This document shows, one piece after another, positions 3,181-63,973 of a stretch of DNA of 64,000 nt. Below the pieces are notes generated by a model. The model did no database searches, had not been told where the DNA came from, and saw nothing but the letters and a program-made list of their open reading frames with translations. Source of the DNA: a candidate division WOR-1 bacterium RIFOXYB2_FULL_46_45 (GTDB lineage Bacteria; Margulisbacteria; WOR-1; XYC2-FULL-46-14); contig MEUE01000001.1 in the NCBI GenBank assembly GCA_001771585.1, forward strand, positions 372,001 to 436,000, in the 5' to 3' direction. Every line of letters begins with the position of its first letter. Positions within the stretch are counted from its first letter, which is position 1. The position numbers and the translations under genes were made by a program.

Positions 3181-3231
3181 GCTTTAAATATATCTCCTAT
3201 CTATTCTATGCAAAAAAAATTAACTCTTTAA

Positions 3232-3975: not shown

Positions 3976-4023
3976 ACTATTTATTTATCTTCACTTTCCA
4001 CCAAAAATTTCACTTTTTTTTGC

Positions 4024-4029
4024 TATAAT
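4024..4029 (+). promoter_or_regulatory. TATAAT -10 box of tldD, leaderless type
   Basis: A consensus TATAAT ends 5 bases before the tldD ATG (4035). Transcription would then start at or next to the ATG, and no Shine-Dalgarno is present. No good -35 hexamer is visible at the usual spacing. Confidence 0.7.
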
Positions 4030-4034
4030 GAGTC

Positions 4035-23246: not shown

Positions 23247-24145
23247 CAGTATACCTCCACCGCCGTGGCCTTAAAAATCAGGAATATTTTCCGCCCCTTT
23301 GCGATATTCAGCGCTTCAACCGAAGCTCGGGTTACAACCGCGCGAAAAACTTCTCCGGCATCTATTGTAACGCTGTAAGACAATCCTTCGGGAACAACAT
23401 CCAAAACCACTCCCTCCAGAGAATTGCGCGCGCTGGTCCCATGCAGCGGTTCGGAAGATAAAATTATGTCTTCCGGATGGACAATTGCCCAGGCGGAATC
23501 CTGATTTGAAGCCGCAACCTCAAAATTAATTTTTTGATTCTTAAAAACCGAACCGGCAATGCTCCCGCGAAAAATATTCTCTATCCCCAAAAAAGACGCA
23601 ACTTCTTGCCCGGCCGGCCTTTGCAAAACATCTTCCGGCCTCCCCTCCTGGACAATTTTCCAGTCGATCATAATCATTAATACATCCGCTACCGCCAGTG
23701 CTTCGGCCTTATTGTGGGTGACCCAAACGGCGCTTATCCCTTTTTCGGAAATTATCCCTTTTAATTCCTGCCTTAACGCCAATTGCGACGGCAAATCGAG
23801 ATTAGCGAACGGTTCGTCCAAAAGCAGGGTTTTTGGTTCAAGCACCAAGGCCCGGGCCAAAGCGGCCTTTTGCGCTTCTCCGCCGGACAAAGTAATTGCC
23901 CTTCTATCTTTAAGCGGGGTTATCTTTAATTTTTCCAGCCAGAACATAACTTTCTTTTCAATATCGGAAGCTTTGCGAAAACGCAGCCCCAATGCCACAT
24001 TTTCAAATACGGTTAAATCAAAAAGAAGCGGCTCTTGGAAGACCATCGCCATGGCCGGATTAATTTCCCCGCTTTCAAGTCCCATCAAACGGCGAAGATA
24101 AGTGCTCTTCCCCGCTCCATTTGGACCAAGCAGCGCCTTGATCAT
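23246..24145 (-). CDS. tupC: Tungstate/molybdate ABC transporter ATPase
   Basis: Energises uptake through TupB. Walker A GPNGAGKST, Q-loop VFQEPLLF, signature LSGGEAQKAALARAL, Walker B TLLLDEPFANLD and H-loop VWVTHN are intact; a C-terminal MOP/TOBE-like oxyanion domain (about 220-299) follows. The start at 24145 overlaps the tupB stop (ATGA) and leaves only 4 residues before the Walker A strand, where most ABC ATPases have about 25-30. An upstream in-frame extension inside tupB ends in KGEKIM but has no homology further up. 299 aa. Confidence 0.9.
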   Translation of the reverse strand: MIKALLGPNGAGKSTYLRRLMGLESGEINPAMAMVFQEPLLFDLTVFENVALGLRFRKASDIEKKVMFWLEKLKITPLKDRRAITLSGGEAQKAALARALVLEPKTLLLDEPFANLDLPSQLALRQELKGIISEKGISAVWVTHNKAEALAVADVLMIMIDWKIVQEGRPEDVLQRPAGQEVASFLGIENIFRGSIAGSVFKNQKINFEVAASNQDSAWAIVHPEDIILSSEPLHGTSARNSLEGVVLDVVPEGLSYSVTIDAGEVFRAVVTRASVEALNIAKGRKIFLIFKATAVEVY

Positions 24146-24798
24146 GATTTTTTCACCTTTTGCTGGATCAGCGTCAAACCAAAATTTACGGAAAAAGACA
24201 AGACCAGCAAAATTCCTCCCAAAATCAGGGCAAAATTGATATTCCCCTTTTGTGCCTCCAAAACGATCGCGGTCGTCATCACCCTGGTCTCCCCCCTTAT
24301 ATTTCCTCCCACCATCATCACCGCCCCGACTTCGGAAATTATTCCGCCAAAGCCGGCCATCACCGCCGCCAAAAGAGAAAGGCGGGTCTCCCTGATCAAA
24401 AGCCAAAGTAAATTCCATCCGGAAGCCCCCAGCGCCTTGGCCTGCCAAATCATTTTTTGCGGCACTTGCTGGATAGTTGCCAGGGTTAACCCTGCAATAA
24501 TCGGAGTGGCGAGAATTACCTGGGCAATAATCATCGCGATCGGCGAATAAATCCATTCAAGAAACCCGAGCGGTCCGGCTCTCCACAACACAATCATAAC
24601 CAGAAGGCCGACCACCACCGGCGGCAGGCCCATTCCGGTATTTATTAATCCGATTAAAATCTTTCTTCCGGGAAACTCCCTTAGGGCAACGAAGAAGCCC
24701 AAACTTATTCCGATAATAACCGAAATAAGCAAAGCGCTCCCCGAAACCCTAAGGGTTAAAAGAATAATCGCAATGATATCTGAAAAATTATTTTGCAT
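24142..24798 (-). CDS. tupB: Tungstate ABC transporter permease
   Basis: Integral membrane channel of the TupABC importer, about five or six helices. GMGLPPVVVGLLV and the EAA-like loop AKALGASGWNLLWLLIRE contact the ATPase. 218 aa from the ATG at 24798 (MQNNFSDII), which overlaps the tupA stop by 11 bases; a longer frame reading into tupA is not needed. Pairing with a TupA-type binding protein favours tungstate over molybdate. Confidence 0.92.
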   Translation of the reverse strand: MQNNFSDIIAIILLTLRVSGSALLISVIIGISLGFFVALREFPGRKILIGLINTGMGLPPVVVGLLVMIVLWRAGPLGFLEWIYSPIAMIIAQVILATPIIAGLTLATIQQVPQKMIWQAKALGASGWNLLWLLIRETRLSLLAAVMAGFGGIISEVGAVMMVGGNIRGETRVMTTAIVLEAQKGNINFALILGGILLVLSFSVNFGLTLIQQKVKKS

Positions 24799-25594
24799 CA
24801 GGGAAAAACAGAACCCCTCCAAACTTTTCTTTGCCGAATTCTGCAATAACTTTCTGAGTAGAAGCGGAAACGATAAAGCCCGAAAAGGCTTTTCCGCCCT
24901 CCGCATTTACTTTGGAGAATTTTGCCGGATTGACCTCAATCACATGGTAAGGATTAAGCAAAACCTTGTCCCCTTCCGACAGGATAACCAGTCTAACCTT
25001 GTCCTTAAAGCTCAAATAGGTCGCTCGGTCGGATAAAGTATAGGCCCTCTTTTGGCTTGCGATCATAAGGGTTGTTCCCATCCCCTGGCCCGATTCCAAA
25101 TACCACAAGTTGGACAAAACCGTTCCGGCCGGCCAAATTGACAGTTCTTTTTTATGCGTGCCGGACTTGTCCCCGCGGGAAACAAAAAGAACGCCGGAAG
25201 AGGCAATTTTTCCAAAAGCCGCTTTGGCGCTCTTAAACGATCCGACCCCGGCCGGATCGTTTGGGGGACCGAGCAAGACAAAATCATTGTGCATTACCGG
25301 TTTGCGGTTTATGCCAAATCCTTCGGCCACCAACTTTTCTTCATCCTTTGGGGAATGGACCAACAAAACATCGGCCTCTCCTCTTTTGCCCATCTCCATT
25401 GCCATACCGGAGCCAACCCCGATGGTCTTAACCTTATACCCGCTCTGTTTTTCAAAAAGAGGGATTAAGACATCCAGGAGTCCCGAATCAACAGTGCTGG
25501 TCGTGGTGGCAAGGATTAAATTTTTAGAGGCCGAAATTGACGGGGCGGAAAACAGAAACAAAACCAATAATAGCCATGCAAAAAACCTTTTCAT
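24788..25594 (-). CDS. tupA: Tungstate-binding periplasmic protein
   Basis: Solute receptor of the TupABC importer. A Sec signal peptide covers about residues 1-22 (MKRFFAWLLLVLFLFSAPSISA). The TupA motif LATTTSTVDSGLLDVLIP, VGSGMAME and SRGDKSGTHKKE are present, the ligand-contacting TTTS and SGT elements. 268 aa. GGAGAG precedes the ATG. TupA proteins prefer tungstate strongly over molybdate, which fits the formate dehydrogenase encoded next to it. Confidence 0.93.
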   Translation of the reverse strand: MKRFFAWLLLVLFLFSAPSISASKNLILATTTSTVDSGLLDVLIPLFEKQSGYKVKTIGVGSGMAMEMGKRGEADVLLVHSPKDEEKLVAEGFGINRKPVMHNDFVLLGPPNDPAGVGSFKSAKAAFGKIASSGVLFVSRGDKSGTHKKELSIWPAGTVLSNLWYLESGQGMGTTLMIASQKRAYTLSDRATYLSFKDKVRLVILSEGDKVLLNPYHVIEVNPAKFSKVNAEGGKAFSGFIVSASTQKVIAEFGKEKFGGVLFFPDAK

Positions 25595-25645
25595 ATTCTC
25601 TCCTTTCCTAAATGGGAGGCCCGGAAGTTACCTTCCAAACCCTCG

Positions 25646-25715
25646 GATCTCCTCTGCCAATATTCGGGAGATCGCCGTCCCGACTATCCCGATGTAACAT
25701 CGGGATACGTCGGGA
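25646..25715. terminator. Two stem-loops between porin and tupA
   Basis: Stem 1: GATCTCC (25646-25652) with GGAGATC (25667-25673). Stem 2: TATCCCGATG (25685-25694) with CATCGGGATA (25698-25707), 3-base loop, extended by TCCCGAC/GTCGGGA outside. They lie downstream of the porin stop and before tupA. No clear U-run follows, so they may attenuate or protect the 3' end rather than stop transcription fully. Confidence 0.5.
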
Positions 25716-25730
25716 TCGAAGATTTATTTA

Positions 25731-26717
25731 TTATATCTGGGTCTGTAACTCGAACATTAACGTATCATTATTGGTTGGCGTTGTCTCTTCCGCCACCAAA
25801 TTATAGTTCACAATAAACTTTGTGTTCTTATTCATGCTATAGGTATACCCCAGGGTAACGGTATTCACGATATTCCCGCCAATCGCGGTGTTGGGATCGT
25901 AGTTCTCATACCGAATCAAGGGCTCATGCGCCCCGCCAAATAACCCCGAAACCTGCAAAGAGGCCTCCTGAAGTTTGGCGGTGGCGGCGGTATTTTGTCC
26001 CAACATGTATTCGGCAACCGTGGTAAACGGACCGGACTTATATTCCAAATCAACCGCCAGGTCCCGTTTTTGCGCTTCGGCCGATCCGGCCTTTCCATAA
26101 TATCCCGATAATCCAATATCGATAAAGTTGTTCTTATAATTCACCCGGCCGACCAGGTCTTTGGTCTTATTGGTATCGGTCGCTCCGGTCCCGTTTACAA
26201 TCGCCGCGTCGTAATTTAACCCCGCCAGGTTGGGAACCGCCCCCATCGCCCTTAACCCATAATCACGGGCCGGCATGATGACCCCGTAATGGCTGGGATT
26301 AAGACCGGTCCCGTAAATCGTTTTGTATTTTCCGGAATCATAGGCAAAAGGGAGCAAAAATTGTCCGGCCCGGACCACAATCCCGGTAACCGGGCATTTG
26401 TATTGTCCGTAAGCGTCGGCCAAAGCTACCGTCCCTCCGCTGGAAAGCCCCGCAAAATCGGGCTGAACCAAGAAAGAAAAATCGGGAGCGACATTTCCGG
26501 TAACCCTAATACGGGCACGGGAAAGGTTTAAGGTGTCCGGACTGGTATTCGCCTGGTAAGCGCTGTAGCGAATACGCAAATATCCGTTCACATCCAATTT
26601 AGTCAAAAAACCGGCCGAATCGGAAACCGAAACGGGTTCAACCTTCTTCTCTGCCGCAATAGAAACAGACGAAACCAGGAACAAAAAAACCAAAACCAAG
26701 CCAAGAATCTTTTTCAT
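25731..26717 (-). CDS. Porin-like outer-membrane beta-barrel
   Basis: A signal peptide (about 1-22, KKILGLVLVFLFLVSSVSIAA) is followed by alternating beta strands such as VNGYLRIRYSAYQ, LSRARIRVTGNV and FSFLVQPDFA, resembling the phosphate-selective porin O/P family. 328 aa. It lacks the usual final aromatic residue (ends FELQTQI), though a Phe lies 7 from the end. GGAGGA precedes the ATG. It sits 13 bases after fdhA in the formate dehydrogenase transcript, which hints at passage of formate or oxyanions. The family is from strand pattern, so moderately sure. Confidence 0.75.
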   Translation of the reverse strand: MKKILGLVLVFLFLVSSVSIAAEKKVEPVSVSDSAGFLTKLDVNGYLRIRYSAYQANTSPDTLNLSRARIRVTGNVAPDFSFLVQPDFAGLSSGGTVALADAYGQYKCPVTGIVVRAGQFLLPFAYDSGKYKTIYGTGLNPSHYGVIMPARDYGLRAMGAVPNLAGLNYDAAIVNGTGATDTNKTKDLVGRVNYKNNFIDIGLSGYYGKAGSAEAQKRDLAVDLEYKSGPFTTVAEYMLGQNTAATAKLQEASLQVSGLFGGAHEPLIRYENYDPNTAIGGNIVNTVTLGYTYSMNKNTKFIVNYNLVAEETTPTNNDTLMFELQTQI

Positions 26718-38703: not shown

Positions 38704-39462
38704 ATGAAAATCAGGGTTTTGGGCTGCCACGGTTCGGAATTTTCCGGTACCCGGCTCTGCAGTTTTTTGATCGGAGAAGCGGTCGCGCTTGACGCCGGGG
38801 CAATCACCTCCACGCTCACCAAAGAAGAGCAGGAACAACTAAAATATATCCTTATCACCCACTCCCACCTGGATCACATAAAAGATATCGCTTTTCTGGC
38901 GGACAATCTCCAGGCCAAAAAGCGTGATCCGATTAATATAGTAAGCATTGATTCCGTCCTTGAGATATTAAAAGCGCACTTTTTAAACGGGAAGATCTGG
39001 CCCGACTTCACCAAGCTCCCCGCACCTAATTCTCCGATCTTAAAATATCTCCCGCTTCCGCCTGACCAACCGGCCGCGATTGGGGAGCTTACGGTGCGGC
39101 CAATTAAAGTCAGCCACACCGTTCCGGCGGTGGCTTATGAAATTAAAGAAGGCGATTCAACGGTAATTTTCAGCGGAGACTGCGGAGCGAATTGCATGCT
39201 TTGCGAAGCGGCCAATTCCGCAAAAAACCTCAAAGCGCTCTTTGTGAGCGTCTCTTTTCCAAATAATATGGAAGAGATCGCCAATGTCAGCCGGCATTTG
39301 ACCCCGCGCCTGCTGGAAAATGAAATAAAAAAACTAAAAGTGACCGTGCCGATTTATGCCTATCATCTGAAGACCCAGTTTGAAGAAGAGATAAAACAGG
39401 AGCTGACCACCCTTCTGCCACAAGTAAAAGTTTTAAACGAGAAAGAGACGCTTAATTTTTAG
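38704..39462 (+). CDS. Class II cyclic-nucleotide phosphodiesterase (metallo-beta-lactamase fold)
   Basis: Likely hydrolyses cAMP or cGMP. Zinc motif THSHLDHI, second-shell HTVPAVAYEI, FSGDCGA and the late YAYHLK fit the class II phosphodiesterase/RNase Z-like fold. 252 aa. Cytoplasmic, no signal peptide. A class III nucleotide cyclase is encoded 6 kb away (45166-46257), so synthesis and breakdown of the same messenger may both be here. RNase Z itself is a weaker alternative because its exosite arm is absent. Confidence 0.75.
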   Translation: MKIRVLGCHGSEFSGTRLCSFLIGEAVALDAGAITSTLTKEEQEQLKYILITHSHLDHIKDIAFLADNLQAKKRDPINIVSIDSVLEILKAHFLNGKIWPDFTKLPAPNSPILKYLPLPPDQPAAIGELTVRPIKVSHTVPAVAYEIKEGDSTVIFSGDCGANCMLCEAANSAKNLKALFVSVSFPNNMEEIANVSRHLTPRLLENEIKKLKVTVPIYAYHLKTQFEEEIKQELTTLLPQVKVLNEKETLNF

Positions 39463-39547
39463 CCTAAAATAGCGCTCTCAATTTTTACCCCAAAATACAT
39501 TGGAAACAAACATTAGAAGCAAAAATAGTGAAATTTTTGTAATAATG

Positions 39548-39565
39548 GCCCGATAATAATCGGGC
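39548..39565 (+). repeat. Stem-loop in the leader of the radical SAM island
   Basis: GCCCGAT (39548-39554), loop AATA, ATCGGGC (39559-39565). It begins 2 bases after a TAATAAT that could serve as a -10 box, so it would sit at the very 5' end of the transcript. May stabilise the mRNA or be part of a dispersed repeat. Confidence 0.5.
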
Positions 39566-39597
39566 AGGCAGCAGACGGAAAATAAAGGATGAATTTT

Positions 39598-40461
39598 ATG
39601 ACAACAATAATAAGAAAACTCCAGGAAGTCCCTCATATGGTAACATACGCTTGTCCGCTAAAATGTGATCATTGTTATTTATCGGCCGGAGAAAGAAAAA
39701 CACCGATTCGCCGCTTTACCCAAGATCAAGCCGATGCTTTCTATGACACTTATCGTCCTACAGTGGTTTCCGCAACCGGGGGAGACTCTTTGGTAGAACC
39801 GGAACTGGTCAGAATATTAGCCAGAAGTACGGAGAAATTTGGAGGAGCATTGGAGCTTGTCACCAGCGGAATGCTTTTAAAGAATGATTTTGTCAGAGAG
39901 TTAACCGATATCAACAGAGGCGCTTTTTTTCAAGTATCCTTGGATGGCTTAAAAGATTATCACAACGGATTGCGTCGTGATGTAAATGCCTTTGACGCTG
40001 CCATGAATGCCATTGATCTCTGCTCGGCCACCGGACGAACAACAAAAGTCAGAATGACGGTCACTGCCGACAATGTTGGACAGATTCCCGAGATTATCTC
40101 ACAGCTTGATCGTTTTTCACGATCAAATATTCGCCTGCTTATGAGACCGGTAATCAATGCCGGTCGCGCAAGCAGAAATAGTATCGGTTTTGTAGACACA
40201 TCCTCTTTATCGGGTTTTGGTGGTTTACCTCAACATATTTGGCTTGAAACGGTAAATAGTGTAGGCCCTTGTGGCAACTGCATTGATACTGTCGCAATTG
40301 ATCCTCAAGGCGATATCTACGACTGTGTATATTTCACATTCAACCCTGAATACAAAATTGGCAGCATGTATACAACTTTTAATGGTTTGAAAAGACACCG
40401 GCAATTTGCTGAATATATGGGACGTTGTTACGCCAGAGAACATTATGGGGTAAACGGATAG
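39598..40461 (+). CDS. Radical SAM protein with SPASM-like C-terminus
   Basis: SAM-cleaving [4Fe-4S] motif CPLKCDHC at about residues 20-27 and a GGD variant of the SAM-binding GGE motif (SATGGDSLVEP). The C-terminal part has CGNCIDTVAIDPQGDIYDC plus a last Cys in MGRCYA, resembling a short SPASM domain that binds auxiliary clusters; such enzymes often modify peptides. 287 aa. Start at 39598 has AAAGG upstream; an ATG 9 bases earlier is possible. First of four plus-strand genes. No precursor peptide was found within the upstream 135 bases. Substrate unknown. Confidence 0.8.
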   Translation: MTTIIRKLQEVPHMVTYACPLKCDHCYLSAGERKTPIRRFTQDQADAFYDTYRPTVVSATGGDSLVEPELVRILARSTEKFGGALELVTSGMLLKNDFVRELTDINRGAFFQVSLDGLKDYHNGLRRDVNAFDAAMNAIDLCSATGRTTKVRMTVTADNVGQIPEIISQLDRFSRSNIRLLMRPVINAGRASRNSIGFVDTSSLSGFGGLPQHIWLETVNSVGPCGNCIDTVAIDPQGDIYDCVYFTFNPEYKIGSMYTTFNGLKRHRQFAEYMGRCYAREHYGVNG

Positions 40462-40469
40462 AGATTACA

Positions 40470-41384
40470 ATGACAACCGTCAGGCCATATAATGTTAATA
40501 GGGAATATGTAAACATTGAAAACTATAGCCCCTTCTGTAGGGTCAACGAAGTATCTCCTAAATATCAAAGAGACCCCTTTAGATTGCCCGTAGTTAGAAC
40601 AGCTGTTACTTTTTTCCCTGTCCCGGTTCATCCGGATACCTTCAACGACCTTCAACTCAACCCTGTAGATATAGTTGAAGAAAGGGATGTTTTTCCAACC
40701 AGTTCGTTTAGGACGGTTTACGATCCTTATGATAATTTATTCTTAAAACTTCCTATCTTAAGAAGGATAACCAGAGGATTAAGAGATCTGCCATACATCC
40801 AATTGGACAGAAGTCGAAGAGCAACAGAAATGCTGACTAAATTCCCATTGCAAGGATTTAGCTTTTTGCCCGAAGAATGCCATTACGCCGCTTCGCCCAA
40901 TTTTAACTTTATTAAGAGAGAAATTCCCGATGCCGATCTTTACCCCTGGTTTTACGTCATTAAAACCCGGTGCTTTGATAAAAAGTTAGACCTGGCGTGT
41001 GCAATCAACATAATTCGGAGCTGGCTTTTTTACGCTTCACACCGCATCTTTCTTGAGTATCACACACAAAATATTTTGGTTGACCCTCAAGGCGATCTTT
41101 ATTATAGGGACTTATCCGATGTTAACGGCTCAAGGCCAAAAGTTTTAGAAGAAATGCTGGCGCTTGTCTTTGATAGAACCGTTTGCTCCCAGAATATTGA
41201 CCATCTCTTTCGTTACCGCCCGGATTGGGGAAGTAAAGAACAAGAGATCATCAAAGATGTTATCAAAGAAGAAATAGCCGGGCGCGCCCTGCCATTTCCC
41301 AATTATTCGATGGGCTTTCCGTCGGACGCGACGGAACGTATCCCTGTAAAAATTTCTCTATCAAGTTGGAGAGATTTTTCATGA
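40470..41384 (+). CDS. IucA/IucC-like (NIS synthetase-type) protein
   Basis: Residues in the last third, HRIFLEYHTQNILVD followed by YYRDLSDVNG, match the E-x-H-x-QN and RD signature of the IucA/IucC and FhuF-like C-terminal domains, which hold ATP and substrate in siderophore synthetases. SPNFNFIKREI upstream fits the strand-loop before it. At 304 aa it is about half of a normal NIS synthetase (around 580-600), so it holds mainly the C-terminal half or is a compact relative. Start at 40470 (MTTVRPYNV) is 8 bases after the radical SAM stop. Function would be amide or ester bond formation, by inference. Confidence 0.6.
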   Translation: MTTVRPYNVNREYVNIENYSPFCRVNEVSPKYQRDPFRLPVVRTAVTFFPVPVHPDTFNDLQLNPVDIVEERDVFPTSSFRTVYDPYDNLFLKLPILRRITRGLRDLPYIQLDRSRRATEMLTKFPLQGFSFLPEECHYAASPNFNFIKREIPDADLYPWFYVIKTRCFDKKLDLACAINIIRSWLFYASHRIFLEYHTQNILVDPQGDLYYRDLSDVNGSRPKVLEEMLALVFDRTVCSQNIDHLFRYRPDWGSKEQEIIKDVIKEEIAGRALPFPNYSMGFPSDATERIPVKISLSSWRDFS

Positions 41385-41394
41385 CGGGAAAATT

Positions 41395-42108
41395 ATGAAC
41401 AAAATAACCGCAACCTATAATTTATATGCGGAGGCAGTTGCTTTTATAAACAGGAAGCCGTTATCTAGCAAAGAAGCGATTGTCGTCTTATTACGTCATG
41501 GAAAAACCCGCTTCAACGAAGCACACAAATTGCAATCCTGGGACCCCGATATCGATGAACTTTCACCCGCGGGAGAAAAATGCGCACGACAGTTGCAAGA
41601 ACCTTTAAATCTACTTCCAATTTCTTGGATCGCCTCATCAGATCTTTATAGAGCCATACAAACAACTCGGTTGGCGGCACCAAAAGCTTCATTTCAATTG
41701 TGTTCCTGTCTACGAGATTTAAATTTTGGTGATATCGGCGGCTTAAAATATTGGGAAGGACCAGAAAACGAATTCAAACAAAAGTATCCAACTGCTTATG
41801 AAACCTGGAAAAACGGCAACAAAAGAACCTTTACTGCTCCAGGCGGAGAGAGTTATTTGGATTTTGAGACTCGGGTTAGGCAAGGATTTTTTACTGGCAT
41901 CTTGCCAAATTGCCTGGGGCAGGTGTCCTTAATTATCGCTCATTTTGGAACTGTAAGAGAAATTTTATATGAGATATTTAAGTCTAATGTTAATGAAATG
42001 AAAATTTCAATTGACAACGCCAGTATCACTATCATCCATTTTACCGAGGATGGCAATCAAAAATTATTATTATTCAACAACACAGAACATCTAATGGCAA
42101 AAACATGA
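41395..42108 (+). CDS. Histidine phosphatase (phosphoglycerate mutase-like)
   Basis: RHG motif VLLRHGKTRFNE holds the phospho-accepting His; the second catalytic His is in LIIAHFGTVREIL. DLYRAIQTTRLAA is the usual Arg-bearing helix. 237 aa, with about 30 extra residues at the N-terminus. Comes 10 bases after the IucA/IucC-like gene behind a GGGA, and its stop overlaps the next start (ATGA). It could remove phosphate from the pathway intermediate; the true substrate is unknown. Confidence 0.85.
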   Translation: MNKITATYNLYAEAVAFINRKPLSSKEAIVVLLRHGKTRFNEAHKLQSWDPDIDELSPAGEKCARQLQEPLNLLPISWIASSDLYRAIQTTRLAAPKASFQLCSCLRDLNFGDIGGLKYWEGPENEFKQKYPTAYETWKNGNKRTFTAPGGESYLDFETRVRQGFFTGILPNCLGQVSLIIAHFGTVREILYEIFKSNVNEMKISIDNASITIIHFTEDGNQKLLLFNNTEHLMAKT

Positions 42109-43217
42109 AAGCAACAAATATTCAACTAACGCTCAAAAAACCACCAAGTTTAAAAATGGGTGCCGTCACAAATACAATTATCCGTTTAAGTGATTTATTT
42201 TATAAAATCAACGGCAATTTTGCGGTGCGAGGATCGTTTTCTAGAGGCGACGCCGACTTTAATGATGTTGACGTAGCGATTTATTTGGCTGAAGGAGAAA
42301 GGATTAGCGATGATGGATTGCCAAAAACTTTTTTAGGAAGGAACATAGGCTATTGGTCTATCCCAATAAAAGATGCCGAACGTTACTATGAGCATTGCAT
42401 TAGACCATCAATCTCTTTAGTGGAAACCAAGTTTTTAAAATTAAGAGATAAAGATGTCGGCCAAATGATTGAACGACAACAGCAAAAGTTTTATCTGTTT
42501 AGGCGAATGCAATTCCTGCTTTACATTCTTATCGACGAAGATACCATGCTCAATCTTTACTCCTTTTTATTGAAGGAAGACAGCTATTCCATGCTCAAGA
42601 GACAAGCTGGCAGCAAAAAGACCATTTCCAGAGTAGTTTGGGCCACCAAAGCTCTCTTTCCCGAAACCAGAGAACTAAATTCCATACAAACATTAGAATT
42701 TCTTTGTACCAGAAGAATCATGTCTGAGAAGACAAAAGACACATGTTTGAGAATTTTAGAAAACTTACAAGCCAGACACATTGAGAAGGTTAGATGGGCC
42801 AATGATACAAATCAAATCGACAGATGGTTCCAACAAGAATTTAAAAGCTTGGTTTTAAGTCGTCTGGAAGGGCATCTTGACCCAATACTGGTGAAACATA
42901 GTTTATCCGCCGCCAACCAAGACGCGACCCAAGAAGAAATCGACAGGGCTTTTAAATTTGCCAGAAAATTGCCTCTTGGCCCGGAAAAGTTTATTTTATA
43001 TTTTGCCTTGTCCGGTAATACTCGGACCAGAGGAACAGACCTTGTGGCAATATTTGATGAGATAAAGGGCGACTTTGTTTATAACAATATAACACGCAAC
43101 TTAATCATGAATCCTCATTTTCCGGAAAGATTGTTGTCTCCAGATTTAGTTAACGCTTCCAGTTTATCAAAAAGGGCTTATGAAATAAGAAAGAAACTAC
43201 TAGCCCATCCTGAATAA
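42105..43217 (+). CDS. Nucleotidyltransferase-fold protein
   Basis: The minimal nucleotidyltransferase signature RGSFSRGDADFNDVDVAIYL (about residues 42-61) gives GS and the D-x-D metal-binding pair. The rest (370 aa) is helical, with Arg/Lys-rich segments, and not recognised. Last gene of the four-gene island. It may transfer NMP to a small molecule, protein or RNA. No adjacent HEPN partner is seen, so a MNT-HEPN toxin-antitoxin pair is unlikely. Third codon positions are AT-rich, as in the rest of the island. Confidence 0.7.
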   Translation: MKATNIQLTLKKPPSLKMGAVTNTIIRLSDLFYKINGNFAVRGSFSRGDADFNDVDVAIYLAEGERISDDGLPKTFLGRNIGYWSIPIKDAERYYEHCIRPSISLVETKFLKLRDKDVGQMIERQQQKFYLFRRMQFLLYILIDEDTMLNLYSFLLKEDSYSMLKRQAGSKKTISRVVWATKALFPETRELNSIQTLEFLCTRRIMSEKTKDTCLRILENLQARHIEKVRWANDTNQIDRWFQQEFKSLVLSRLEGHLDPILVKHSLSAANQDATQEEIDRAFKFARKLPLGPEKFILYFALSGNTRTRGTDLVAIFDEIKGDFVYNNITRNLIMNPHFPERLLSPDLVNASSLSKRAYEIRKKLLAHPE

Positions 43218-43222
43218 GTTAT

Positions 43223-45169
43223 TTATTTTGCGACAGTCCTAATTGGGATCGTAAAGCTGAACTTGCTCCCCTTCCCCATCCTGCTTTCCACCCAGATCTT
43301 CCCGCCCTGGAGCTCGATTAGCTTTTTGCAGATTGAAAGGCCGAGTCCGGTCCCGCCAAATTCTCCCTTGTGCACCTGCTTGAATTCCTTAAAAACATCG
43401 TTGATCTTTTCGGGGGCGATCCCCATCCCGGTATCTTCAACCTCAAAAAGAAAATTCTGGTCTTTTTTCTTCACCCGCAAGTTGATCCCGCCCTTCTGTG
43501 TAAATTTGGCGGAGTTGCCGATCAGGTTGATTAAAACCTGGGTGATCCTTTTCCGGTCGGCCCACATCATCGGAAGGTTCCGGTCAACGCTTGGCTTGAG
43601 ATAAAGTTTTTTGCCGTCCAAAAGCGGCTTGGTGGAAAAATGGACCAAATCGATAATTTCTTTGACCGGGACATTTTCCGTCTTAAGCTCGATTTTCCCC
43701 GCTTCAACGTTTGAAATATCGATAACATCGCCGATCAGCCCCGCAAGGTGATCCTCGCTCTTTTTCATCTCTCCCAGCGCTTCTTTAACCTTGTCCGGAA
43801 GCTGGCCGCGGGCGCCGGAAGAGAGCTCTTCGGTAAGCCCGACCACAACATTAAGCGGCGCTTTTATTTCGCGCGACATGTTGGTCAAAAAGCCGGTCTT
43901 CTTTTCGGTGGCCAGCTCCAGCTCCTTGTTTAAACGATCAAGCTGCTCGGTCTTTTCTTTGATTTCCAAAGCCCGTTCCTCGACCTTTTTTTCAAGGCCG
44001 CTGTGCAGCTCCGAAATCTCTTCGATTGAACGGTTCAACCCTTCGTAAAGCTTGGCGTTCTGGAGCGCGATCGCGGACTGGAACGCGACGTTGTTCAAGA
44101 AAGAGACCTCGTCCAGGTTGTAAAAGAGCGAACTGCCGCGCCGTTTCGAGAGGACCAAAAAACCGATAAGTTCTTCATGGTATGAAAGCGGCAGGATAAA
44201 TTCGGCGGAAAGCTCCTTCATCCTGGCCAGGCATTTGTCTTTTACCGGGGCGTAAGAAGGGTCTTCTTCAAAATCATAAATGGAAAGGGGATTGTTTTTG
44301 CGGCGCGCCGCGATCGCAAAAAGCTCCTCTTCCCCCTCCTCCTTTGATAAAATAACCTCCGCCCCGGAAACGTTGAGGGCCGCAACCAGGTCTTCTTTAA
44401 GGCTGGCGATAATTTTTTTGACGTCAAGCAGGGTTGAAATATCGTCGCTGATCTTGGCAAAAGATTTCTGGAGGTTGACGTTTTCACGGAAGATATAACG
44501 GCCTAAGAACTCTTCCATCCGGTCGTAAAAAAAGAGGAAAAATAAGATCATTAAAATCGAAAAAAGCGGGAGCCGATAAACTTCCAATCCGAAAAAAGAG
44601 CCGATTTCATTGATAAAATAATAAACGGATGAGAACAGAATAATGATGATCGTTCCGGTTATAACGCCACGGATGGCGCTTTCGGCCTCATAGGGGTTAT
44701 AGCGCAGCAGCACATAGGCGGCAATCAAAAAGAGCGGAGTAAAAGACAAAAACAAAAACCCCCAGGCCAGGTTGAGGGATAAAGAGAGGAGGCCGGTAAA
44801 AATAGCGGTAAAAATCCCCAAAAGCATCAGCCGGGCGCGCTGGCGGACCAGCGAATCCGAACCCGAAATCCTTACAAAGAGAAGCGACAGCAAAACAAAA
44901 GCCAGCACCAAAAACCAATAGGTCGGAGGGATAACCGCCAGAACCCCGACTCCCGCTACCATCCAGACGGAAAAAAGGGCGGTTAAGACCAGAAAAACAA
45001 AACTCGCGGAAAGGGTCGGCCTTTTTATGCTGACAATCATTCCGCAAGATAAAATTATCAGCGCGCCCAACAAATTGGCGGCAAAAAAAAGACTCGGGAC
45101 CCGGGGAGCATAGAGAAAGATAATAAGCAGGCTCAATCCCATAACCAGTATACTGGCTATTTTTCTCAT
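43223..45169 (-). CDS. Histidine-kinase-like sensor, phospho-acceptor His replaced by Arg
   Basis: 648 aa: about seven transmembrane helices (1-235), a GAF-like domain (250-385), a coiled coil (390-430), a HisKA-like dimerisation domain and a complete HATPase domain (N-box LINLIGNSAKFT, G1 EDTGMGIAP, G2 GGTGLGLSI). The H-box reads FLTNMSREIKAPLN where active kinases have S-H-E; the codon is CGC (Arg). It overlaps the cyclase stop by 4 bases (ATGA), so the two act together. It may control the cyclase without classical phosphotransfer, or bind ATP as a pseudokinase. Confidence 0.88.
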   Translation of the reverse strand: MRKIASILVMGLSLLIIFLYAPRVPSLFFAANLLGALIILSCGMIVSIKRPTLSASFVFLVLTALFSVWMVAGVGVLAVIPPTYWFLVLAFVLLSLLFVRISGSDSLVRQRARLMLLGIFTAIFTGLLSLSLNLAWGFLFLSFTPLFLIAAYVLLRYNPYEAESAIRGVITGTIIIILFSSVYYFINEIGSFFGLEVYRLPLFSILMILFFLFFYDRMEEFLGRYIFRENVNLQKSFAKISDDISTLLDVKKIIASLKEDLVAALNVSGAEVILSKEEGEEELFAIAARRKNNPLSIYDFEEDPSYAPVKDKCLARMKELSAEFILPLSYHEELIGFLVLSKRRGSSLFYNLDEVSFLNNVAFQSAIALQNAKLYEGLNRSIEEISELHSGLEKKVEERALEIKEKTEQLDRLNKELELATEKKTGFLTNMSREIKAPLNVVVGLTEELSSGARGQLPDKVKEALGEMKKSEDHLAGLIGDVIDISNVEAGKIELKTENVPVKEIIDLVHFSTKPLLDGKKLYLKPSVDRNLPMMWADRKRITQVLINLIGNSAKFTQKGGINLRVKKKDQNFLFEVEDTGMGIAPEKINDVFKEFKQVHKGEFGGTGLGLSICKKLIELQGGKIWVESRMGKGSKFSFTIPIRTVAK

Positions 45170-46301: not shown

Positions 46302-46991
46302 ATGATTACTTACAAATACATTTTTGAACCGGAAGCGGGAGAGAAAAAAGAATTTGTCGTCGAGCTTGACGAAAAGACCTTAAACCGCATCGAGAAGCCG
46401 AAAAAAAGCTACCCCTTCTGGGCGCAGTTGGAATACAAAAAATGCGGCAACTGCCCTTTTGCCGCCGGCGAAAAAAAGTTCTGTCCGATCGCGACCGGCC
46501 TGGTCGACCTTCTGGAAACATTCAAAGACACTATTTCACACCATGAAGGACTGGTGACGGTTGTCACCGCCGAGCGCACCATCAGCAAACAGGCTTCGAT
46601 GCAGGAAGGGCTAAGTTCGCTGATCGGCATATATATGGTAACCAGTGCCTGTCCGGTGATGGAAAAACTAAAGCCGATGGTCCGCTACCATCTTCCTTTT
46701 GCCAATGTCAACGAAACGATCTATCGGGCCACTTCGATGTACCTGCTCGGCCAATATTTTGTTGCCAAACACAACAAGACCCCGGACTGGAAGATGGACG
46801 GACTTATTGAAATATATAACGAAGTGGCCAAGCTCAACGGGGAGATCGCCCAAAGGATCCGCTCCGCTTCAAACGAAGACGCCAATATCAACGCGCTGGT
46901 GATTCTGGATATTTTCGCGAAGATGCTCCCCTTTTCGATCGAGGACACTTTGAGCAGAATGGAATACCTGTTCGCTTCTTACTTACGCTGA
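46302..46991 (+). CDS. Uncharacterised protein with CxxC...C motif (DUF6901-like)
   Basis: 229 aa, cytoplasmic. N-terminal beta-rich part ([20 protein letters not shown]), then [19 protein letters not shown], a likely metal-binding Cys cluster, then helices. I associate it with a domain of unknown function (DUF6901), from memory and unsure. Start at 46302 (MITYKYIFE) is preferred over an upstream ATG since it follows the -10 box and matches the fold start. Divergent from the sensor/cyclase pair; ends overlapping pdaD by 9 bases. Confidence 0.7.
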
Positions 46992-47582
46992 CGGCTTGGC
47001 TTCTTCAACCCTTAGAACCGACTGATAATCGAGCAAAAGGACCGCCGCAGAGAGAACCGTCGTCCACATTCCGCGCTGGCCGATAGCGGACTGGGTGATG
47101 TTGGTGGTGCGAACAATCTTGTCGGAAAGCTTCCAGGTTTGCTGGCGCTCGTCCCAATCGGCATTCTCGTCAAATTCAATTCCCAAAGTAGTGGCAAGCA
47201 TTTGTGCCGCCAGATCTTCGGCGTAGTTTCCGCAATCCTCGTCGGTCTGCCCGAAAGAATGGTGCTCGCTCAAATAACCGAAAGTGTTCCGGTCGGCCGG
47301 AAGGGCGACTCCAATTGAAGCGGAGATCAAACGGTGCGGCTCGTCGGTCTGGTTGCGCGACATGACCATAAAAGTGATTTCACCGGGACGGATCAATTTC
47401 AGTCCCTGTTCTTTTGAAAGCAGTTTGGCGTTGGGAGGAAAAATACTGGAGACCTGGACATAGTTTAGGGCCTGGATCCCCGCGTCACGCAGAGCCATTT
47501 CAAAAGAAACCAGCTTTTCCCGGTGCCGCCCCACCCCTTTGGTCAAAAATAATTTATCCGGAACAAAAAAATCACCGTTCAT
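46983..47582 (-). CDS. pdaD: Pyruvoyl-dependent arginine decarboxylase
   Basis: Makes agmatine from arginine for polyamine synthesis or acid resistance. The proenzyme self-cleaves between the two serines of VQVSSIFPP (S45/S46) to give a pyruvoyl group. Also seen: the start [21 protein letters not shown] and [16 protein letters not shown]. 199 aa. Overlaps the radical SAM gene by 11 bases. Confidence 0.93.
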
Positions 47583-48354
47583 CTCTTCGTTTAGGCCTCC
47601 TTTTTAGGGTCTCCGCTTCGTTTAGCGGACTGGTCTCCGGCCGCTTGCCGGAATAAACCGTAACCGTTTTGAGCGGCTTAAATAATTTTTCAATTTCTCC
47701 GAGCTCTTTTTCGCCAAGCGGCCGGTCCGCCGATTCGCGCACCGGGGTTCCGATAAAAACCTTTATCGGACCAATTTCTTTGCTCAACCGGGCAATCCCT
47801 TCCGCGTCTTCCTTATTCACCGGAGAAAACATTACCTGCAAGGCGAGCTTCTCCGGATAAAGCGCTTTAACCGCTTTTATCCCTTCAACTATACGCTCAA
47901 AAACTATTCCCGGAACGGGATGGTTAACCTTATTAAAAACCTTGGCATTACTAGCATCCAGTTTCGCCAAAATCAAATCAATTTGAGCCAAATCTCTTCG
48001 CACTCCGGGATCTTGAAGCAGGCTTGAATTGGTAAGCAGCGCGATTGGAACTTTTGAACGCTTTTTTATCTCTCCCGCCACCTCCGCCAGATTAGAAGCC
48101 AGGGTCGGCTCTCCGCTTCCCGAAAAAGTTATATAGTCAATATATAGCTCTTTAGGCAGGCTGTCAAATTCTTTTATTATTTCGGCGGTCGGTATAAAGA
48201 CCTTCCTTATCAATGAAGCCCTCTTGCCTGCCGGTGACGGCCCCAGCTGGCAGTAGTTGCAGCCAAAGGTACAATACTTTTCTCCGGAGATCAGATCAAT
48301 CCCCAAAGAACTTCCCAGGCGCCATGATGGGACGGGACCGTAGATGTATTTCAT
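47572..48354 (-). CDS. Radical SAM protein, COG0731-like
   Basis: [18 protein letters not shown] followed by [12 protein letters not shown] gives the CxxxCxxC cluster and matches a widespread family of radical SAM proteins related to the wyosine-synthesis enzyme group; [13 protein letters not shown] is the SAM-binding segment. 260 aa. Reaction unknown. Overlaps yggS upstream by 4 bases and pdaD downstream by 11. Confidence 0.85.
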
Positions 48355-48989
48355 ATTTTATTTTTCCTAGCCCCAAATATCGCCGTTCCAATTCTCACCA
48401 TCGTGGCACCTTCTTCAATCGCGACCTTATAAGAATCGCTCATCCCCATCGATAAAATTTCCAATCCGAGTCGATCAAGCAACTGTTTGGTTTCTTTGAA
48501 GTACGGGCGCAAATCCCCTTTTGCCGGCCCCATGGTCATGAGCCCTTTGATCTGGATGTTTTTAAGCCGGGAAATCTCTTTAACGAATTCCTCCGCCTTT
48601 TCGGGAAAAACTCCGGCTTTTTGTTCTTCCCTGCCGCTGTTGATTTCAATTAAAACCGGCATGATCTTATTAATCTTAGCACATTGTCTGTTAATCTCTT
48701 GCGCGTGCTTATAAGAATCGAGCGTCTCGATCAAATCAAAAATTTTTACAGTCCGCTTGATCTTATTGGTCTGCAGGTGGCCGATAAAATGGAGCTTAAA
48801 TCTTTTTACAAATTCCGGACTACTGGCTACCAGCTCTTCCGCTTCCTGAAAATAATTCTCCCCGATTATCTTGACTCCGGCATCAACCGCTTCATTAATT
48901 TCTTCCGGCGTCCTGGTTTTAGCGGCGGCGACAAGTTGGACATTGGAAGGGAGTTCGGCTAGAATCCTTTTAACGTTTTCTTTGATCAT
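48351..48989 (-). CDS. PLP homeostasis protein YggS/PLPBP
   Basis: Alanine-racemase-fold protein that binds pyridoxal phosphate and buffers its level. VQLVAAAKTRTPEEI holds the PLP lysine; IGENYFQEAEEL, LHFIGHLQTNKIK and LSMGMSDSYKVAIEEGATMVRIGTAIFG are the family blocks. 212 aa. Overlaps the ABC permease by 4 bases. Confidence 0.94.
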   Translation of the reverse strand: MIKENVKRILAELPSNVQLVAAAKTRTPEEINEAVDAGVKIIGENYFQEAEELVASSPEFVKRFKLHFIGHLQTNKIKRTVKIFDLIETLDSYKHAQEINRQCAKINKIMPVLIEINSGREEQKAGVFPEKAEEFVKEISRLKNIQIKGLMTMGPAKGDLRPYFKETKQLLDRLGLEILSMGMSDSYKVAIEEGATMVRIGTAIFGARKNKI

Positions 48990-50584: not shown

Positions 50585-53005
50585 CTACTTCATCTCTGTT
50601 TCAACATAATCGCCATCTTTTTTTTCAACTTTCAGCAACTGCCCGTTGGGAAAAACAACCAGATAGGCGCGATTGCCTCCATATCCTGCAAACAATCCCG
50701 CATCAACATTTATTCTAGTAAGGCCAAGTGTACCCTGAATTGCCTCTTGTCTTGAACTTGGAGGAGTGTGCGCAAAGATACTGCGATATCCCAACAAACC
50801 AATTCCTTCATTCTGTGATGGATCGCTTCCATCTTCCCAAAAAATACCTCCCACATAGTTTTCGCCACCTCTAGCATGAGGAGCCCCAAAAATAGGATGC
50901 TGATAATCGGATTGGGCAACCGCGTTCCGGAAAATTTCATTAATTCTATCCGCAACATCCTGCAATGATACTTCGTTTATAGCAACCCCTTTCTTTATAT
51001 TTAGTATTAATCTCTCTGCGTTAATTTCATTTTTCAACAATTGAAATAACGGCAACCTTAGCTCCGCGTGGGTATAAATATTATTGCCTTGCACATAAGC
51101 GGCTAAAACTTCTCTTCCCGTAATGTCTTCTTGTAACTCTTGCAAAATCCTTTCCGCTTGATCTAATGGAAAGTTAACATATCTTCTGTTTCCTTCCAAA
51201 AGCAACTGTTCATGATTGCCCCAAAGACGGATTACCCGCTGATTGGAATTAACGTTAGACTGCAAATTTCTTAAAAAGCCAAAGGCCTCTACCGATTTTG
51301 GCCCCCGATCAATCACATCCCCCATTTGCACCAGGGTAAATCCCCCTCGCGACTGAAGCACTCCTTCTCTTGTCAAAAGCTCTCTAAAACCATCAAATTC
51401 TCCATGTATATCCCCGATTGCCACAACTCTTTCCCCCCATCTATCCGCTTTCAGTCCATTTTGAGAAATCATAACAGCAGGGACTCCTTGCGCAGGAGTA
51501 ACCAGTGATTCTCTTATTGTGTCCGCTCCGGATAATTGATCAAAAGATTTTGGATCAACAGCAATTTTTAAGCCGTCAACAAAAGAAGTGATTGTTACTT
51601 TTTCTCCCTCCCTTAAAACCGAAAAACAATCAAAAGGAAAAGAAACAGGCAAAACAAACCTTGAGGCATCAATCTTGTGCGCTCCGATAACAACCTCCAC
51701 TGCTTCATATACCCCTTTGAACTCGTTTTCTTCTCCCAGCAGAAACATTTTATTGCTGTCCGGATAAAAAACCAATCGAAAATGTTTACCGGCATATTCA
51801 ATGGCTAAAGAGGTTACGCCATTCTCAAACGACACCGATCTCTTATCATTTTTATCTAAAACATAACTAGTTCCCGCCCTCAATTCTATTGGCTCACACA
51901 TAGAAGCTAAATCAGCAAGAGTTGTCCCGCCAAATATCGTATCAAATGGACCAACCCTTCTTTGCGTAACAAATGGCAATGTTGTTTTTGCATCTAAATC
52001 ATCTGGCAAAGGCAAAGACAATTCCTCTTCCGGAAGTATTTCTACATTATGATCACCGTCCCCAAAGTTAAGTCCCGCCAAGTAATCCACAAAAACAGAA
52101 GGATCTATTGAAATTGAAATTGTAGGATTCTCATCATAAAGCCGTCCGGAACCTAAAACAGCGGGCGGAACTATTGGAGGAGAAATTATAGGAGGAGCCG
52201 CTTTTTGGGTGACTGGACACAAGAAATATCCATCTGATTGCGGTACAAAACCACCGGCAACCGGATTCTTTGAAAAACCCGGTTCAACTACAATCGGCAG
52301 CCAAACGGGAACGCATTCTGTTTTATGTCTCCCTAAATTAAAAAGAACAATATCTCCCGGCAGTAAAACCGTCCCCGCATGTCCTTCTGTCCCATGAAGA
52401 TCAACCTCCGTCTCAAAATTTGTTCCTTCAAGCCTCCATTCATCTATTTTATATTGATCTTTATCTCCCTCTTTATTTAAAAGATGAAACCTCCCTGCCC
52501 CCACCCGATACGCCCTTGTTGCATCTGTCCCCTCCTGCGCAATAATAATTTTGGTTCCATTGGCTTGCCGGCGGACAACCAAAACACTTTGAGTGCCAAC
52601 AACCTTTAAGCGCAAGCTTCCGGGAGTTTCTGTTTCAGGGCCATCCATATCAAAAGCCGCATGATCACCAGCAAGAATGTCTCCGGCAATTCTGCTAGCC
52701 AATTTGCTTGTTTGTATTTTAACTCCATTTGTTCCAAAGGTTCCAACCCATCTTGTTTTAGCCGGATCAAATGAAACTTCTTCTCCAAAAACACCCAGAT
52801 TAAAAGGTTCCGCGGAACGATAATCTGTCCCCATCATGGTTCCATGTTCCATAGCACTTCTTCCCACTATTCTTTCCAAAAAACCTGACGGGGGTGCATC
52901 CGAAGATCTGTTAAAGGTCACTAAATCTCTTACTTTAAACGCTGGGGTTGAAGAGACACTTCTTCCGGGAAAAGATAAAACGCGGGGCACTCTCGCTATC
53001 GTCAT
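50585..53005 (-). CDS. Large protein with PPP-type phosphatase domain
   Basis: 806 aa. The C-terminal third (about 525-780) is a metallophosphatase of the PPP family: VVAIGDIHGEFDGF, MGDVIDRGP, LWGNHEQLL and later His residues (GAPHARGG, FAHTPP) form the two-metal centre. The first 500 residues are beta-rich and unrecognised, with a Pro/Ile-rich linker near 275 (PPIISPPIVPP). No signal peptide, so cytoplasmic. A GAGGAGG ribosome-binding site precedes the ATG. Single gene, AT-richer than its neighbours. The substrate could be a phosphoprotein or a dinucleotide polyphosphate. Confidence 0.8.
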   Translation of the reverse strand: MTIARVPRVLSFPGRSVSSTPAFKVRDLVTFNRSSDAPPSGFLERIVGRSAMEHGTMMGTDYRSAEPFNLGVFGEEVSFDPAKTRWVGTFGTNGVKIQTSKLASRIAGDILAGDHAAFDMDGPETETPGSLRLKVVGTQSVLVVRRQANGTKIIIAQEGTDATRAYRVGAGRFHLLNKEGDKDQYKIDEWRLEGTNFETEVDLHGTEGHAGTVLLPGDIVLFNLGRHKTECVPVWLPIVVEPGFSKNPVAGGFVPQSDGYFLCPVTQKAAPPIISPPIVPPAVLGSGRLYDENPTISISIDPSVFVDYLAGLNFGDGDHNVEILPEEELSLPLPDDLDAKTTLPFVTQRRVGPFDTIFGGTTLADLASMCEPIELRAGTSYVLDKNDKRSVSFENGVTSLAIEYAGKHFRLVFYPDSNKMFLLGEENEFKGVYEAVEVVIGAHKIDASRFVLPVSFPFDCFSVLREGEKVTITSFVDGLKIAVDPKSFDQLSGADTIRESLVTPAQGVPAVMISQNGLKADRWGERVVAIGDIHGEFDGFRELLTREGVLQSRGGFTLVQMGDVIDRGPKSVEAFGFLRNLQSNVNSNQRVIRLWGNHEQLLLEGNRRYVNFPLDQAERILQELQEDITGREVLAAYVQGNNIYTHAELRLPLFQLLKNEINAERLILNIKKGVAINEVSLQDVADRINEIFRNAVAQSDYQHPIFGAPHARGGENYVGGIFWEDGSDPSQNEGIGLLGYRSIFAHTPPSSRQEAIQGTLGLTRINVDAGLFAGYGGNRAYLVVFPNGQLLKVEKKDGDYVETEMK

Positions 53006-62089: not shown

Positions 62090-63973
62090 ATGCCACCGGG
62101 ACCAACAGCAACTGGACCAGTTGCAAGAGAAAGGCCTGTGCCCAGGACACCAAAACAAATTCCCGTTACCGGCGGTTCTGCTCTTATGCCTCGGGACATC
62201 ACCATCGCGCCCACTACAGAAAGACGAACAATAGCAACCGTTCCAACCACACTGGAAAACATTAATCTCTCAACAAATGTAATAAACGAATTAAGAAATA
62301 ATCGGCTAACCGATCTAAGCGAAGCCGAACAAACATTAAGAATCGATACGGGACTTAAAGAAATTGCCCGGATTAGATCAAATGCGGGGAAAAAAGAAGA
62401 ACTGCAATTGGACCAGGTTGAAAAAGCAGAAGAAATAGGCCGTCTGGCATTATTGGCTAGCTTGCCTCCCAGATGGACAAAGGGATGGGAACCTCTTGTT
62501 GAAGCAATTTTAGACAATGTTACAATAATAGAACTGGCTAGACATATTCAAGCAAGTGATCTGGTCTATTTTTGCGAAGCTTATCCTTTATTTAAAAAAA
62601 TTCCGGTAAAACCGGAGAGTCCTGCCACCACAGCAAGAGACACGACTGCCGCTATAATCGCATGGGGAAGAACCATTGTTGAAACAATAATCCCCGGCAT
62701 CGAAAGAGGATCAACCCAAATTATTGTTAATGCTTTTATGTGCGATCATACAAGAGATCTATTCTTCTCAACCTTAAAAACCGTGAAAATCGATAATCCC
62801 GCTTTTGCAGAAAAAATGTGCACCACCTTGCTTTTGGCTGCGGATGAAATCAACGATATTCTTGGCGACACTACCGGCGGACAAGATTCGACGGCAAAAA
62901 CAGAAAACTACATCGCCCGTTTAAACGATACAAACAAAGGCCGCGACAAAGAAGCAGCAGCTAGAGGAGCCATTGCTGTTATAAAAAAAGGAAGAAAAAA
63001 CAGTCTTTCTTTTAAGATTGCATCGGCAATTCTTGAAAGACAACCACTAGAAGCATTTGATCAATTATCGCAAGAATTATCCGCAACAAACAGTTCGATT
63101 TCCAGCCGCCTCCGCTTTTTTGCAAGCGGCCTTCCCGGCCTGCACTGGATCGGAGGAGAGACGAGAAGCATCTTTGATCTCATCCTGCAAATAATCAGCA
63201 ACATTAACTCTCCCGAACAATTAATGCAAATAATTAAATTGTTGGCGGAGCAAGACAACGGCGCCGCAAAAAAACTGCTGACTCATGCCATTGAAAGGTT
63301 GGACTATATAACAAGGTTGGGAATTTATGCCGGCACCACCTATCATCACAACATTGTTAATTTGTATTATTTACTGGAGGGCTCCTTATCTTTTTTTGAA
63401 TTTGCCAATCCAAAACAAACAATAAAAACCGCAATTGGGACGATTGAAGCGTTACGACAGCTTCATTTAACCCCCAAACAGACCGCGGAAACGATAAGGG
63501 CACTTTATACGGAAAATCCCGTTTTATATAGAATCGGGCTGCCTTATCTCCTAGAAAATCACGCGGAAAGAGAATTAAAGGACATTCTGGAATCTTCGCG
63601 AGGAGCAGAACGAATAGCCTCAATCCTCTCCATAATCGGATCGATCCTTCCCGCCGAAACCTACAACAGAAAAGAAGGCGAAGCAACTTCTATTTCCCAA
63701 GTCCCTCTTTTTGCCGAATTACAAATGGAGAAAATAATAAATCAGGATTATCGGCTCCCCTATTACAGGGCGCTCCAACCGGTTATTATAATGTTTTCGG
63801 ATGCCATAAAACAAGAAGAATTTAAACGCGTTGAAGATGCCCTGCGGGAAATAAAACAATATTTAGAAAGAACAAAAAAGACCCCTTATGAATTAGAGGA
63901 TATTCTGGGAGCCCTTTTAACAAAGAGCTTGGAAATTATGCTGATTTTAAAAGGTCAAGCGCGCCCCGAATAG
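62090..63973 (+). CDS. Unrecognised 627-aa protein
   Basis: No family recognised. N-terminus (1-55) is Pro/Thr/Arg-rich and likely disordered; the rest is almost all alpha-helical, with repeated amphipathic helices (ELARHIQASDLVYFCEAY, LMQIIKLLAEQDNGAAKKLL) that suggest an alpha-solenoid. No signal peptide or membrane segment. AGGAGG lies 9 bases before the ATG. AT-rich like the orphan genes at 2.1-4 kb and 50.6-53 kb. Complete in the window. Confidence 0.75.
   Translation: MPPGPTATGPVARERPVPRTPKQIPVTGGSALMPRDITIAPTTERRTIATVPTTLENINLSTNVINELRNNRLTDLSEAEQTLRIDTGLKEIARIRSNAGKKEELQLDQVEKAEEIGRLALLASLPPRWTKGWEPLVEAILDNVTIIELARHIQASDLVYFCEAYPLFKKIPVKPESPATTARDTTAAIIAWGRTIVETIIPGIERGSTQIIVNAFMCDHTRDLFFSTLKTVKIDNPAFAEKMCTTLLLAADEINDILGDTTGGQDSTAKTENYIARLNDTNKGRDKEAAARGAIAVIKKGRKNSLSFKIASAILERQPLEAFDQLSQELSATNSSISSRLRFFASGLPGLHWIGGETRSIFDLILQIISNINSPEQLMQIIKLLAEQDNGAAKKLLTHAIERLDYITRLGIYAGTTYHHNIVNLYYLLEGSLSFFEFANPKQTIKTAIGTIEALRQLHLTPKQTAETIRALYTENPVLYRIGLPYLLENHAERELKDILESSRGAERIASILSIIGSILPAETYNRKEGEATSISQVPLFAELQMEKIINQDYRLPYYRALQPVIIMFSDAIKQEEFKRVEDALREIKQYLERTKKTPYELEDILGALLTKSLEIMLILKGQARPE

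Follow-up and report, generated by a model that had tools for sequence, protein, structure and literature searches.

A probably acquired gene island in a WOR-1 bacterium carries a predicted compact NIS synthetase beside a radical SAM enzyme and a nucleotidyltransferase-like protein

We analyzed a 64,000-nucleotide stretch (the window; G000:C1:372001-436000) of the 1.70-Mb, 99.5% complete genome of the candidate division WOR-1 bacterium RIFOXYB2_FULL_46_45, in which four plus-strand open reading frames (ORFs) form an island spanning positions 39589-43217. They encode a 290-aa radical SAM (S-adenosylmethionine) enzyme (39589..40461), a compact, IucA/IucC-like NIS (nonribosomal-peptide-synthetase-independent siderophore) synthetase of 304 aa from its ATG (40470..41384), a 237-aa histidine phosphatase (41395..42108) and a 370-aa nucleotidyltransferase-like protein (42105..43217). 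All four frames are open, and their tight spacing, with gaps of 8 and 10 nt and a 4-nt overlap of the last two genes, fits a single operon. A preliminary description of this DNA had named the same four families in a tightly spaced set, and all of its ORFs are present with matching domains, the nucleotidyltransferase by its motif; its start for the radical SAM gene, 39548, falls within the leader, the first ATG being at 39589. We read the island, tentatively and with slightly less than even confidence, as an acquired biosynthetic cassette whose core of radical SAM enzyme, compact NIS synthetase and nucleotidyltransferase builds one small metabolite.

Judged from its predicted structure, the 304-aa protein is a genuine NIS synthetase in compact form. 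Pfam IucA_IucC (PF04183) matches the window protein at 1e-4 and 22.5 bits, just under the curated cut-off of 25, and matches its two relatives (described below) over that cut-off, at 35.6 and 33.1 bits. An AlphaFold2 (AF2) model built from the three sequences (pLDDT 73.5, pTM 0.75) was compared with the PDB by VIA-align, and AcsD (2w02) came out on top with Z 22.6 over 280 residues and a root-mean-square deviation of 3.1, covering AcsD 158-561. The 22 best PDB entries for this predicted model are all NIS synthetases, followed by Bud32/PRPK kinases at Z 13, and the NIS fold that the preliminary description had proposed as a check on this protein is thus borne out at the level of a model. By sequence profile, the match to the aerobactin synthase IucA is weak (E 0.005).

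The catalytic residues were compared in an alignment of the three members with AcsD, IucA and a Bacillus badius NIS protein. T77, S79, R81, K93, T101 and R105 of the window protein align to AcsD T277, S279, R281, K293, T301 and R305, and E196, H198, Q200, N201, R213, D214 and K294 align to AcsD E442, H444, Q446, N447, R463, D464 and K563; every one of these positions is kept in all three members, including the equivalents of the general base E442 and of K563, with the glutamate of one relative (L041) standing one residue further from the histidine than in the others. The residues for ATP binding and acyl-adenylation (AcsD S279, R281, K293, T301, R305, H444 and D464) are identical in all three proteins. 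AcsD R501 is not mapped by the alignment; a candidate counterpart is R236, a position occupied by R or K in the relatives. Because the NIS fold and the catalytic residues are kept, we predict that this core-only protein is competent for both acyl adenylation and condensation.

The NIS synthetases with solved structures that were matched here are full-length siderophore enzymes, and the compact protein differs from AcsD, IucA and SbnC in several respects. It has 304 residues instead of ~580-620, with no counterpart of the ~157 N-terminal residues of AcsD (1-157; the structural alignment begins at AcsD 158) or of a stretch in the C-terminal half, and the spacing within its ExHxQN-RD motif is 11 residues compared with about 15 in the aligned full-length enzymes, making the HxQN-to-RD hairpin four residues shorter. 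It neighbors genes for a radical SAM enzyme and a nucleotidyltransferase rather than siderophore genes. The half-usual size of the protein and the foreign composition of the island (below) are what one would expect if the NIS gene were a truncated relic in a chance neighborhood of decaying foreign genes; this is extremely unlikely, given four open and tightly spaced frames and an intact compact form that retains the full catalytic set and recurs in other bacteria, 39-45% identical and next to the same radical SAM enzyme.

The two relatives, L015 and L041, come from a rabbit-gut Bacilli metagenome-assembled genome (MAG) contig and from a second gut Bacilli MAG of the same family, respectively; both genomes belong to another phylum than that of the window and lie outside the 74 genomes of its phylum examined. 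Their radical SAM enzymes are 42% (L015) and 41% (L041) identical to the window protein, and their NIS synthetases 43% and 39%. In both, the radical SAM, nucleotidyltransferase and compact NIS genes form one co-directional run with the nucleotidyltransferase in the middle. On the minus strand of L015, the radical SAM gene (2535-1666) is followed by the nucleotidyltransferase gene (1745-1197, start codon uncertain), the NIS gene (1200-295) and a hairpin with a U-run. In L041, a terminator-like hairpin and a consensus promoter (TTGACA-17-TATCCT, 1970-1998) precede the radical SAM gene (2023-2898), the nucleotidyltransferase gene (2898-3818), the NIS gene (3842-4969) and a GC-rich hairpin. The L041 contig is 5 kb long and the L015 NIS gene ends 295 bases from its contig end; within these limits, the promoter in front in L041 and the terminator-like hairpins right behind the NIS gene in both relatives suggest that the three genes are a complete unit. 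L041 also carries, just before this operon, a short gene (1454-1882, plus strand) whose product has a DUF1016 N-terminal domain only, perhaps a truncated nuclease gene.

All three known loci with a compact NIS gene thus also have a radical SAM gene and a gene with the nucleotidyltransferase motif, and these three genes are the conserved core. The histidine phosphatase is not counted in it, because the gene occurs at the window locus only, with none in reach at L015 or L041; of the co-occurrence of four families raised in the preliminary description, three families hold at every locus and the phosphatase drops out. It is an accessory of the window locus and a typical branch-1 enzyme (Pfam His_Phos_1 2e-31), with its RHGxT, SSDLYRA and AHFG motifs intact by eye.

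The cassette is rare: 386 genomes in that Bacilli family yielded 2 clear members. Neither the NIS nor the nucleotidyltransferase protein, used as a single query against genome and viral contigs, gave a match, nor did searches with an alignment of artificially varied rows or with a two-row alignment. Since the single-sequence searches failed, we turned to a DNA pattern that codes for the ExHxQN-RD hairpin at the 11-residue spacing, which picked out 33 loci in genome contigs, L015 being the only one with tblastn similarity to the island proteins; two DNA patterns run against viral contigs found nothing. A profile built from the window and L015 sequences then detected L041. Profiles were also run against three partial taxonomic samples: 395 genomes from the class to which L015's genome belongs, 341 Clostridia-type genomes from the class that includes a Lachnospiraceae MAG, and 218 from the phylum that includes a Desulfobacterales MAG. 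They revealed no members beyond L015 and L041, and these negatives are correspondingly weak. Weak matches in G089, G284, G335 and G369 each covered one short stretch and were not counted. Because the same three-enzyme core occurs in two gut bacteria unrelated to the WOR-1 bacterium, it looks like an undescribed biosynthetic kit moving between bacteria.

Comparison with the sole other same-family genome among those searched, G001, places the island between two native genes. The left flank is a metallo-beta-lactamase-fold hydrolase gene (38704..39462, plus strand; orthologue 55% identical in G001) and the right flank a sensor histidine kinase gene (43223..45169, minus strand, convergent with the island; orthologue 53% identical). 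In G001 (locus L046) the two orthologues are convergent, their 3' ends overlap by 11 bp (2707-2717) and the island is absent between them; in the window they stand 3.76 kb apart, and the interval holds exactly the four island genes. As the preliminary description had noted, the island is AT-richer than its surroundings: its genes have a GC content of 0.38-0.43 and a third-position GC content (GC3) of 0.35-0.41, compared with means of 0.47 and 0.53 for the 49 other window genes. Their codon adaptation is low as well (-0.04 to 0.03, compared with 0.082 +/- 0.035 for the other window genes, the reference set being the window genes only). Since the flanks abut in G001, composition and codon use are atypical, and the NIS-like protein has no relative among the other 73 genomes of the phylum examined, the island was probably acquired laterally. 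No convincing border repeats were found at its edges and no mobility genes were seen there. Elsewhere in the window, genes at 2128-3180 and 3235-3975 (both minus strand) and 62090-63970 (plus strand) are AT-rich, use codons atypically and match no Pfam family, and a gene with a calcineurin-like phosphoesterase domain at 50588-53005 (minus strand) has a similar composition; the former may be other acquired genes.

The nucleotidyltransferase of the window is called from its motif, RGSFSRG-x4-NDVD of the Pol-beta type, which is followed by a long, mostly helical C-terminal part. Likeness to Pol-beta-type nucleotidyltransferases (NTP_transf_2, MntA and CCA types) lies in this GS-x(n)-DxD active-site motif, present at all three loci, and in a Pfam match that is over the cut-off in L041; the NTP_transf_2 value of the window protein is 0.034, below cut-off, and L015 gives sub-threshold Polbeta matches. 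What sets the cassette apart from these families is that three different proteins (182, 306 and 370 aa), mutually unalignable beyond the motif in profile comparisons of single sequences, stand beside the same two enzymes. This suggests that the activity itself is needed, the slot having apparently undergone non-orthologous replacement within one enzyme class. A possible TerB link of residues 255-335 (42867-43109, plus strand), through an Azospirillum plasmid protein (35.8% identity over 81 aa, E 3e-3, one genus), was too weak to retain.

The radical SAM enzyme (Pfam Radical_SAM 1e-12) combines a CxxxCxxC core with a short twitch/SPASM-like C-terminus, in which C228, C246 and C280 are invariant in the three-row alignment with its relatives. 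The SPASM domain is sub-threshold in the window protein (E 0.16), above cut-off in L015 and just below it in L041. Significant matches to NirJ, AhbC, PapB and SkfB radical SAM/SPASM enzymes run along the core, and the Cys-containing tail is shared with them; these matches to named families are generic, the island enzyme falling far under every NCBIfam cut-off (best 104 bits versus 650) and differing by its short ~290-aa form, its three invariant tail cysteines and a neighborhood free of heme and peptide genes. For none of the four island proteins does any NCBIfam model reach its cut-off.

The peptide maturases SkfB and YydG are among the best sequence relatives of known structure, and the family matches include PapB and further peptide maturases. 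This raises the possibility that the enzyme serves in the maturation of a peptide or protein whose gene lies elsewhere, and that its partner enzymes attach an acyl group and a nucleotide to that product. We consider this quite unlikely. The heme-pathway enzymes NirJ and AhbC match the core just as strongly; neither a recognition-element protein nor a protease or exporter was recognized; and no short ORF is common to the flanking gaps of the three loci, a check that covers linked precursors only. A six-frame reading of the upstream border (39463..39588), which separates the radical SAM gene from the metallo-beta-lactamase-fold gene, likewise showed no precursor-peptide ORF, in agreement with the absence of precursor peptide and exporter from the island noted previously. 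No Rfam element was found within the island.

The main rival, which we regard as unlikely, is an anti-phage or stress system whose enzymes produce a modified nucleotide or, once infection has occurred, nucleotidylate a target, as viperins or nucleotidyltransferase-based systems do. A very sparse, mobile distribution and a compact, self-contained operon would suit such a role, as would the partial viperin matches of the radical SAM enzymes (PADLOC pVip), weak matches of the Bacilli nucleotidyltransferases to PADLOC PDC-S09 and an oligonucleotide cyclase, and the DUF1016_N gene upstream in L041. These PADLOC matches are weak, however, and mostly over shared cores. At family cut-off, the radical SAM enzyme does not give a full-length viperin match by sequence (NCBIfam viperin in L041, 52 bits versus a cut-off of 180, core only), and its twitch/SPASM-like tail accompanies better matches to NirJ/AhbC/PapB-type enzymes. 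No defense genes were recognized beside the window island or in L015, and we know of no defense system that employs an NIS synthetase.

A metallophore, the product that NIS kinship first suggests and one of those floated in the preliminary description, fares worse and is very improbable. The close structural relatives are all siderophore synthetases, yet no hydroxamate, catechol, amine or diamine supply, exporter, receptor or uptake genes were seen at any of the three loci (L041 within its short contig), and no siderophore operon known to us combines one compact synthetase with enzymes of the radical SAM and nucleotidyltransferase types. With no export, uptake or precursor-peptide gene linked at the three loci, a metallophore or an ordinary RiPP (ribosomally synthesized and post-translationally modified peptide) is unlikely, and the likely product is a small metabolite that stays inside the cell and resembles a cofactor or nucleotide.

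In the biosynthetic cassette that we favor, the compact NIS synthetase, from its fold and kept catalytic residues, would adenylate a carboxylate and condense it with an amine or hydroxyl; the radical SAM enzyme, by its family, would make one demanding C-H or C-C change on a building block or the conjugate; and the nucleotidyltransferase, from its motif and its presence at all three loci, would add a nucleotide to a hydroxyl or phosphate, so that a nucleotidylated product is plausible. In the WOR-1 genome only, the histidine phosphatase would remove a phosphate, finishing the product or countering nucleotidyl transfer. No order of steps is implied, and one small molecule for all three chemistries is the simplest reading of the conserved set. 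F420-type cofactor pathways pair a radical SAM enzyme (CofG/H), a nucleotidyltransferase (CofC) and a ligase (CofE); the likeness, drawn from general knowledge, is in the three kinds of chemistry and is an analogy only, as no ligase homology was seen. A broader proposal, possible but doubtful, is that a core-only NIS enzyme, a radical SAM enzyme and an interchangeable nucleotidyltransferase form a mobile module for a nucleotide-linked signal, cofactor or antiviral metabolite, taking NIS chemistry outside siderophores.

Several points weigh against the biosynthetic cassette. Just three loci are known, two from one gut Bacilli family and both of these on MAG contigs, and the assignments rest on sequences and models. 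The nucleotidyltransferase of the window is under the Pfam threshold, and its single-sequence structure model (pLDDT 36) was discarded. That the three nucleotidyltransferases are unalignable could mean an add-on gene with a separate role, and their replacement makes one conserved pathway step harder to argue for. The sequence of an NIS enzyme does not reveal which acyl substrate or acceptor it uses.

The view in the preliminary description that no described pathway has this set agrees with the open-licence literature, where no paper combined these enzymes; most subscription papers lay outside that scope, and this negative is therefore weak evidence for novelty. If the cassette is what we propose, a compact catalytic NIS synthetase, linked in two phyla to genes for a radical SAM enzyme and a nucleotidyltransferase, would carry NIS chemistry into a new class of products and provide a minimal enzyme to study, and the core, being only three genes, is directly testable by expression.

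Two further features of the window lie apart from the island. A molybdenum/tungsten riboswitch (RF01055, 51.4 bits; 25584-25733, minus strand) stands in front of a solute-binding protein gene (24791-25594), followed further on by an ABC ATPase with a TOBE domain (23249-24556), and a porin gene lies upstream (25734-26717); the set is probably a molybdate/tungstate transport operon. At 46986-48989 (minus strand), a pyruvoyl-dependent arginine decarboxylase gene adjoins another radical SAM gene and an alanine-racemase-N-domain gene.

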